The notes under the pieces: generated by a model
Told to the model about the DNA's origin: nothing
Databases searched by the model: none
The model's input: only the letters and a program-made list of their open reading frames with translations
Made by a program: the position numbers and the translations under genes
Shown: one piece after another, positions 51,620 to 61,766 of the stretch
Position numbering within the stretch: the first letter of the stretch is position 1
How the letters are laid out: the number at the start of each line of letters is the position of its first letter
DNA from: Thioalkalivibrio sp. ALJ7
Lineage (GTDB): Bacteria; Pseudomonadota; Gammaproteobacteria; Ectothiorhodospirales; Ectothiorhodospiraceae
Assembly: GCF_000376865.1 (NCBI RefSeq)
Contig: NZ_AQXQ01000011.1
Span: 372,001-436,000, forward strand
Direction of reading: 5' to 3'
Length of the DNA: 64,000 nt

Positions 51620-51670
51620 CGTATTGGGTCATCGCGAGCCGCGAAGCGACGTGGCGATCTGCCACCCAGG
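51620..51670. repeat. Solo arm of the TCATCGCGAG...GGCGATCTGCC repeat
   Basis: GGTCATCGCGAGCCGCGAAGC and GACGTGGCGATCTGCCACCC lie close together, resembling one arm of the paired repeat at 58139-58251 and the piece at 57131-57178. No second arm is seen. It is non-coding and abuts the 3' end of folB. Confidence 0.45.
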
Positions 51671-51731
51671 GCAGTATTGCCCGGCTGCGTTCCATACCAC
51701 ATTCGTTCCCCTTCGGTTTCCTTCCGCCCTA

Positions 51732-52013
51732 GGGAGACGCTGATTTAATTGCACGTCCGCGTTGGCGCCCCCTGTTTTCCGAGACAAGGCGCGTCGTGCA
51801 GCGGGTAGTGGTTCTACCCGCAAGCGGCGCAACGCAGGATCGGGGAACAGGGGGCACCAACCCCACAAGCCATTGGAAGCAGGGGCTCGGCCGCTTTTGC
51901 GCGGGAACGGCGTTGCGGTTCCCTTGTGCAGAATGACTGCACGGCAGTCACCGCGCCTTGTTCGCACGCAAAAGCGACTCGAGCGCGGACGTGCAATTAA
52001 ATCAGCGTCTCCC
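51732..52013 (+). mobile_element. 282-bp inverted-repeat element (MITE-like), copy 1
   Basis: The element begins GGGAGACGCTGATTTAATTG and ends in its exact inverse: the terminal 30 bases on each side are perfectly complementary. It is flanked on both sides by the dinucleotide TA (51730-51731 and 52014-52015), a probable target duplication. Internal self-complementary pairs are at 51761-51776/51846-51861 (16 bp) and 51801-51808/51814-51821 (8 bp, loop TGGTT). It encodes no transposase; an outward ATG frame (FARKSDSSA) begins near the right end. A second copy lies at 60936-61217 with identical length. Confidence 0.88.
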
Positions 52014-52077
52014 TAGGCCTCCCTGGGCATGCCTGAACCTTCTCTCGCACCGGACATGGTTCACAACATGGCCGAAG

Positions 52078-60565: not shown

Positions 60566-61271
60566 TTAATGCAGGAACGGGTTTTCGACGCGGATGCTTT
60601 CGATGACCTGGGAGTGGTTCAGGTCTTCCGATAGGAGAATCGTCGCGCCCCCCTGCAAAGCGGTCGCCACGATCATCGCGCCCCAGAACGAGAGGCGGTT
60701 CCGCTCCTGGATCTCGGAGGCCCGGAGAATGGCCTCTGTATCCGGGCACTCCACTTGCCAGGCCCGGTAGGCCTCGATCAACCGGCGCGCCTCGGTAAGC
60801 GGGAGAGGGGCCGCGATCTTGCGAGTCACGTTGACGTAAAACTCCTGTAGCACCTGGATGCTGATGACCGCCCCACCCGTATCCCAAAGCTGGCGGATGG
60901 CTTGTGCGGCGCGTCGGTGCCGGTCGCCCGCATTAGGGCAACACTGATCCATGTACACGCTCGCGCTCGAGTCGCTTTTGCGTGCGAACAAGGCGCGGTG
61001 ACTGCCGTGCAGTCATTCTGCACAAAGGAACCGCAACGCCGTTCTCGCGCAAAAGCGGCCGAGCCCCTGCTCTCAATGGCTTGCGGGGTTGGCACCCCAG
61101 GTTCCCCGATCCTGCGTTGCGGCCCTTGCCGGTAGAACCACTACCGGCTGCGCACCGCGCCTTGTCTCGGAAAACCTGGGGTGCCAACGCGAGTGCGTAC
61201 ATTGATCAGTGTTGCCCTGGGTCGTGCGCGTAGAGCAGGACGTTGGTATCGACGAAGACCTTATCGCTCAT
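60566..61271 (-). pseudogene. PIN-domain (VapC-type) toxin interrupted by the 282-bp element
   Basis: The N-terminal piece starts at the ATG at 61271 and reads MSDKVFVDTNVLLYAHDP before running into the element at 61217, where a stop follows. The C-terminal piece resumes after 60935 as NAGDRHRRAAQAIRQL and continues through SIQVLQEFYVNVTRK to ILLSEDL and RVENPFLH, stop at 60566. The PIN acidic residues are split between the two pieces: VDTNVLL, LQEFY and SEDL. The ATG lies 11 bp inside the antitoxin's 3' end. A frame starting in the element (FARKSDSSA) could make a truncated C-terminal half. Confidence 0.9.
60936..61217 (-). mobile_element. 282-bp inverted-repeat element (MITE-like), copy 2
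   Basis: In the orientation of copy 1 it begins GGGCAACACTGATCAATGTA; its ends are complementary over 27 of 30 bases. Length equals copy 1, and 61088-61103/61173-61188 and 61128-61135/61141-61148 correspond to the internal stems of copy 1. The left flank is TA (60934-60935) and the right flank TG (61218-61219), a possible decayed duplication. It sits within the PIN gene. It has no transposase. Confidence 0.88.
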
Positions 61272-61491
61272 GCAGCGCGTCCCGATCCGGGCGTTCGCCG
61301 CCGAAGTGGCAGCCCTTGTCCAGGGCGGCCAGGGCCGCGCGCTTGGAACGCTCATACCGTTCGGATCGTTCCACGATGTGCTCCAGTTCCTCCGTCAGCA
61401 GCCGGCTGACCGAAGTCGAACGACGGGCCGCGATGACCTTCAGTTCGGTCAGTACCTGCTTGTCGAGGGACAGGGTAATGTTCTGTTTCAT
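61261..61491 (-). CDS. Orphaned ribbon-helix-helix antitoxin
   Basis: A 76-residue protein, KQNITLSLDKQVLTELKVI then STSVSRLLTEELEHIVE, a ribbon-helix-helix (CopG/MetJ-like) DNA-binding antitoxin. Its end overlaps the ATG of the PIN toxin by 11 bp. Because that toxin is broken by an insertion, the antitoxin has no partner in this locus. It looks intact, so retention may reflect recent loss or use as a regulator. Confidence 0.82.
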   Translation of the reverse strand: MKQNITLSLDKQVLTELKVIAARRSTSVSRLLTEELEHIVERSERYERSKRAALAALDKGCHFGGERPDRDALHER

Positions 61492-61766
61492 GCTGAATCC
61501 TCACGGCTCACGTGAAAATGAGTAGCACGAACACTACGTGCATTCAACGGAGGCCAGTGTGCTGTCAGCGATCAGTTCGAGGGGTGCCGTAGTGGCTTGG
61601 CCACAGGGCTCAGGTGGCCGGTAGTTCCGGGGCGGAATCGCTTTGGCTGGGGGTTGCGGGGAGGCGCGAGCGCGGAGGCTGCGTATAAAACGTGGAAGTC
61701 ACAGCGCGGACACGCATAAGTCTGTATAGTGTCGGCCCTTTTGCCAGTATCTAGAGTTCGTATTCC

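Follow-up and report, generated by a model that had tools for sequence, protein, structure and literature searches.

Bacterial MITEs are usually regarded as deletion derivatives of insertion sequences whose ends alone are important. By target and family, the described element nearest to those reported here is MITEPsy1 of Pseudomonas syringae, an IS5-type MITE of 100 bp with 18-nt ends for which transposition has been demonstrated (PMC3189936). REPINs are short non-autonomous repeats present in many copies per genome, in which the two halves pair and compensatory changes have been noted (PMC3116915). QMITE1 and QMITE2 of Coxiella burnetii are gammaproteobacterial MITEs that yield small RNAs (PMC5896051). 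Correia/NEMIS, ERIC and YPAL are non-coding repeats that fold once transcribed and can alter neighbouring transcripts (PMC10969869, PMC3733652).

The window, a stretch of 64,000 nucleotides from Thioalkalivibrio sp. ALJ7, contains two related copies of one element, the second in opposite orientation, as reported in an initial annotation of this DNA. That annotation gave each a length of 282 bp; the elements proper are 280 bp, and the longer figure includes one base of each target duplication. Copy 1 occupies 51733-52012 on the plus strand between CTAG duplications at 51729-51732 on the left and 52013-52016 on the right, limits drawn from the sequence and from the YTAR duplications of other copies. 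Its type I terminal inverted repeats (51733-51760, plus strand, pairing with 51985-52012, minus strand) enclose three parts. Arm 1 (51761-51860, plus strand) is a variable stem, TTGGCGCCCCCTGTTTTCC/GGGGAACAGGGGGCACCAA, bearing module A (51785-51835, 51 nt, sense on the plus strand), which includes the TGGTT hairpin. A central CCCC/GGGG mini-hairpin with a variable loop follows at 51861-51885, and arm 2 (51886-51983, plus strand) is a stem bearing the inverted module B (51910-51960, 51 nt, sense on the minus strand). Copy 2, also 280 bp, occupies 60937-61216 on the minus strand between a decayed left duplication, CCAG (61217-61220), and CTAA on the right (60933-60936), both assigned with the help of the empty site in relatives. 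Its ends are of type II (element left end 61189-61216, minus strand; right end 60937-60964, plus strand). Arm 1 lies at 61089-61188 (minus strand) with module A at 61114-61164 (minus strand), and module B at 60989-61039 has its sense on the plus strand. The near-identity of the cores holds, with five differences in the ~125 bases before the last arm (alignment columns 154, 165, 166, 193 and 212). The initial annotation was also right about the paired changes in the GCGCCCCCTGTT/GCACCCCAGGTT stem and about the G-C pair that has become C-G around the TGGTT loop. The end arms differ between the copies at about a dozen positions, and their complementarity within each copy is perfect in copy 1 and extends to all but three positions in copy 2. 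A REP-like palindrome of ~33 bp (GGTCATCGCGAGCCGCGAAGCGACGTGGCGATC region, 51628-51662), which has many matches in this and related genomes, lies ~70-100 nt upstream of copy 1.

A search for further copies recovered ~40 full copies in the 2.7-Mb genome to which the window belongs and more in its relatives, so that the resemblance of the two window copies is not due to chance. By DNA search the family is present in 16 of 58 genomes (the window's own and its relatives), all of them Thioalkalivibrio, and many Thioalkalivibrio genomes hold tens of copies. These elements are short and non-coding, typically 280 bp, with 28-bp terminal inverted repeats, and identical 4-bp target duplications flank 114 of 233 copies. 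In the window's own genome most copies lie between CTAG/CTAG, TTAA/TTAA or decayed forms of these and have the ends GGARACRCTGAT.../...ATCAGYGTYTCC or near variants. Copy 2 interrupts a vapC-like gene for a PIN-domain protein, and the orthologous site is empty, with the gene intact, in sister genomes G001, G007 and G011, which demonstrates mobility at this locus. The split gene is part of a vapBC-like toxin-antitoxin pair on the minus strand at 60566-61500. Adjoining copies that have one target site in common, as would result from insertion of one at another's end, were seen at two places (L030/L065, G000:C12:702660-702983; L225, G022:C31:320457-321036). The elements are MITEs by every feature tested and are IS5-type by their ends.

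Two end types occur in the family, type I (GGAGACGCTGATTKAATYGCACGTCCGCG) and type II (GGAAACACTGATYAATGTACACRCTCGCG), and no copy among 232 distinct ones combines the two types at the diagnostic positions 16-17. Full-length insertion sequences with matching ends were sought, and one of ~1.2 kb was found in sister Thioalkalivibrio genomes. It has the outer 12-17 bp and the YTAR duplication in common with the elements, and its transposase belongs to the IS5 family (transpos_IS5_4, 2.2e-95). The proposal that different transposases mobilised the two copies separately fits their differing ends. No PF01609 transposase was found in the window's own genome, so present mobility there is only putative. 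It had also been suggested that the pairing of the end arms is that of a maintained RNA stem. Mismatches in these arms comprise 63 G·U vs 177 A·C (50 vs 80 without the two subfamily columns). There is no G·U excess, and so nothing points to such a stem; we rejected this reading, as the arms match the ends of IS5-family elements.

When the interior was compared with one end of the ~1.2-kb insertion sequence, no clear similarity was found past the ends. Deletion from a single insertion sequence is further argued against by the occurrence of the same core with the ends of another IS5 subgroup. Genome G157, in which GGCCTGTTAACACTA ends flank the core, also holds an 814-bp insertion sequence with GGCGTGTTAACACTA ends whose transposase is of this other subgroup (transpos_IS5_3). 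The core is thus found across Proteobacteria with the ends of at least two IS5 transposase subgroups, and core and ends are separable. A further genome, G383 (L384-L392), has ~85 pairs of GGCCTGTTAACACTA ends and element versions of ~230, 270, 296 and 323 bp, in some of which the module is replaced or lengthened by a ACCCCAAGGGCACTTCCTTCGGGG hairpin. One locus there (L389, G383:C11:46276-46342) is a 67-bp near-perfect hairpin with CTAG duplications, an ends-only derivative in which two ends are joined.

Within the genus, covariation was evaluated over all pairs in 150 copies against an R-scape-like null built on a tree. One pair was significant (end position 14) and the six best pairs were all true pairs; subfamilies and mosaicism left this all-pairs phylogenetic test with little power. 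Median r2 between sites falls to ~0.015 at distances above 40 nt, with a second rise, to 0.56, between one end arm and the other, and all four gametes are present in 95% of site pairs. Comparison of orthologous copies, defined as the same insertion (20 clusters), showed that they differ by block exchange and not by base-by-base compensation. The exchange affects 10-14% per site in hairpin 1 and 18% in loop 129-153 and segment 163-174, and it includes simultaneous change of both sides of the TGGTT hairpin. Orthologous copies differ by 7.3% in their flanks and by 2.0% in their ends, although ascertainment may contribute to the low figure for the ends, as the copies were collected by similarity. 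Gene conversion had been offered as an alternative in the initial annotation; acting between copies it fits the core, but from arm to arm within a copy it is at most rare, since in-situ end changes were two-sided in 2 cases and one-sided in 17. Single-base changes within Thioalkalivibrio fall alike on stems and loops, so no purifying selection is visible on single copies.

Collectively, the paired differences within the genus mostly reflect two old haplotypes and the exchange of whole modules between copies. Two end types with shared, exchanged modules explain what is seen in the window, and the two copies alone therefore do not show selection on the fold, as RNA or as single-stranded DNA, that had been read from them. 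Hairpin expansions are also found, in which short loops (AAGC, TTTT) are replaced by stem-loops of ~20 nt such as CCCGTTTCTGATGGATTCGGGG (L053 and L104 vs L158), and these are gained or lost between orthologous Thioalkalivibrio copies. RNAalifold gave a poor consensus on the whole gapped alignment, and single-sequence pair probabilities were averaged instead. By this measure the whole element folds strongly, and about equally well, on both strands.

A covariance model of arm 2 led to relatives in other gammaproteobacterial families. These are whole elements built on the same plan, with a YTAR-like duplication, long terminal repeats of different sequence, arm 1, the mini-hairpin (CCCGAAGGG) and arm 2. 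Arm stems of different elements have unrelated sequences, but those within one element are complementary. What the elements share is the module, nearly always 51 nt (CAAGGCGC...6-bp hairpin with a 5-nt loop...YAACGC), present in arm 1 and inverted in arm 2. A module-only model (R2) matches 98 of 369 gammaproteobacterial genomes, about a quarter, as well as 72 genomes out of 398 from the phylum; 45 of those 72 belong to other classes, mostly to one family. Inspection of 65 module matches identified 50 full elements, 247-309 bp long, in which mostly 56-58 nt separate the two modules; in the window copies this gap is 74 nt. We left out one match of model R1 (L318), which does not fall within any such element and seems to be due to chance. 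A blastn search of plasmid and phage records with the window copy gave no match, unlike the elements of relatives, which do match plasmids (Azotobacter, Pseudomonas aeruginosa PA83, Halomonas and Methylophaga).

The module was modelled with helices 7-11/42-46 and 19-24/30-35 and a 5-nt loop, 11 pairs in all. Among 13 divergent modules, 10 of the 11 pairs have changed on both sides, and 88% of cells are paired vs 27-47% with slid partners. Similarly, 97 distinct modules contain 260 double-change cells vs 14-50 when slid. Against a phylogeny-aware null, 6 of the 11 pairs are significant (E<0.05) with no significant non-pair, and the nine top-scoring pairs are all true base pairs. The expectation of covariation beyond phylogeny is thus borne out for the module across families and largely not within the genus. 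The wide module set came from a structure-aware model, which favours paired modules, and we therefore ran the strand test again on partner modules that a sequence-only rule had picked out and that had themselves played no part in selection. In these few modules (23), the non-Watson-Crick cells comprise 23 G·U vs 5 A·C and 21 G·A vs 4 C·T (p about 1e-6). Tandem GA opposite GA recurs at 9-10/43-44, where it replaces Watson-Crick pairs, and at 12-13/40-41 and 16-17/36-37. Of 45 distinct modules, 37 have a U-N-R loop, and G·U is preferred at pair 19-35 (57 of 97 modules).

The covariation, the strand-specific G·U and G·A and the U-N-R loops together indicate that the sense strand of the module (CAAGGCGC...AACGC) adopts a single-stranded fold, one that selection has maintained. 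Of what had been claimed for the window copies, selection on the fold is thus upheld for the 51-nt hairpin module in each arm, and only across other families. The U-N-R loops and the G·U preference suggest that the folded molecule is most likely RNA. At the gathering score, none of the 4227 covariance models of Rfam matched the elements of the window or of relatives; permissive thresholds gave weak, chance-level matches only, with tRNA and t44 matches falling outside the element cores. By inspection, the consensus CAAGGCGC...GYAACGC has no pair of integron attC boxes (RYYYAAC / GTTRRRY) at the hairpin foot.

We consider it likely that these copies belong to a widespread MITE superfamily that has exchangeable IS5-type ends and a conserved structured core with a putative role. 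The element is a non-autonomous transposon, probably moved in trans by a DDE (IS5-family) transposase that recognises the ends. Between the ends lie arm 1 with its 51-nt module, the CCC/GGG mini-hairpin and arm 2 with the inverted module, each module being borne on variable complementary stems. Because the modules are inverted, a transcript passing through the element in either direction has exactly one sense module. This sense module might bind a host RNA-binding protein or ribonuclease, so that the transcript would be stabilised or processed and insertions made tolerable; such a host role is the least certain step, and we propose it tentatively, at somewhat under an even chance. Within the genus, hairpin modules are swapped among copies through short-tract conversion, which gives the window copies their appearance of a shared core with different ends. 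Whether the module constitutes an undescribed class of structured RNA, carried as inverted pairs in a MITE superfamily, with a U-N-R pentaloop hairpin stacked on tandem G·A as its conserved fold, and serving spread or tolerance whichever IS5-family transposase supplies the ends, we judge to be evenly balanced on the comparative evidence.

The module might instead act as a single-stranded DNA hairpin, exposed in a cruciform or on the lagging strand, where a recombinase, transposase or replication factor would recognise it and thereby aid copying or movement. An inverted pair of modules gives each strand one correct hairpin and makes the two modules symmetric; DNA, too, can form a strand-specific structure that includes G·U(T) and tandem G·A, and the strong folding of the whole element on both strands is in keeping with this reading. 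However, U-N-R loops and the preferred G·U at pair 19-35 fit RNA better, and IS5-family DDE transposases are not known to make use of single-stranded hairpins. We regard the DNA hairpin as unlikely, if a serious possibility; were it true, it would predict an effect on transposition or replication.

The fold might also be under no selection at all: palindrome-templated repair inside each copy, together with gene conversion from copy to copy, would keep renewing the complementarity of the stems, and the end types would follow two transposases. The block exchange and the two symmetric in-situ end changes in orthologous copies, the prevalence of four-gamete site pairs, the scarcity of within-genus covariation beyond phylogeny and the lack of strand bias in the ends all agree with such a process, which may act on the end arms and on the variable stems of the arms. 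Templated repair, however, cannot yield strand-specific G·U and tandem G·A, nor a fixed 51-nt length across families, and the phylogeny-aware test disfavours it for the module; as an account of the whole it is quite improbable. Least probable is that unrelated ordinary MITEs captured parts of one another with the core as a functionless passenger, which would suit one core with different ends and the exchange of modules, but a neutral passenger would lose the covarying fold and near-constant spacing that persist across families.

In these MITEs the ends can be replaced and the folded core is the part that persists across families, suggesting that the core benefits the element or is the reason the element is tolerated. 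Structured nucleic acids of this kind would be common but unannotated in Proteobacteria, and they are easily found by covariance model. It also raises the testable question of whether a MITE must have a structured RNA, or single-stranded DNA, for its spread or tolerance.

Similar to the present elements, MITEPsy1 makes a 4-nt duplication (CTAG or YTAA in its case) and inserts into genes, but at 100 bp with 18-nt ends it differs from these 280-bp elements and is without a described twin-module core (PMC3189936). REPINs are REP doublets tied to RAYT tyrosine transposases, whereas the elements described here carry a 51-nt module with tandem G·A between IS5-type ends that YTAR duplications flank (PMC3116915); the GTAG-tagged short palindromes of REP and REPIN sequences differ from them in size, ends and 4-bp duplications. 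QMITE1 shares variable ends and a conserved core, as described, and the available part of that account reports no 51-nt twin module for QMITE1 or QMITE2, which sets both apart by description and not by sequence (PMC5896051). In the open-licence literature no description of the twin-module family was found; six end and module strings were also sought there, and a single, unrelated paper contained any of them. The MITE and IS5-type character of the elements is of kinds already known, and it is the twin-module core that appears to be undescribed. In Correia/NEMIS, ERIC and YPAL the fold is mainly the pairing of terminal repeats, whereas the folded core of the present elements is independent of the ends.
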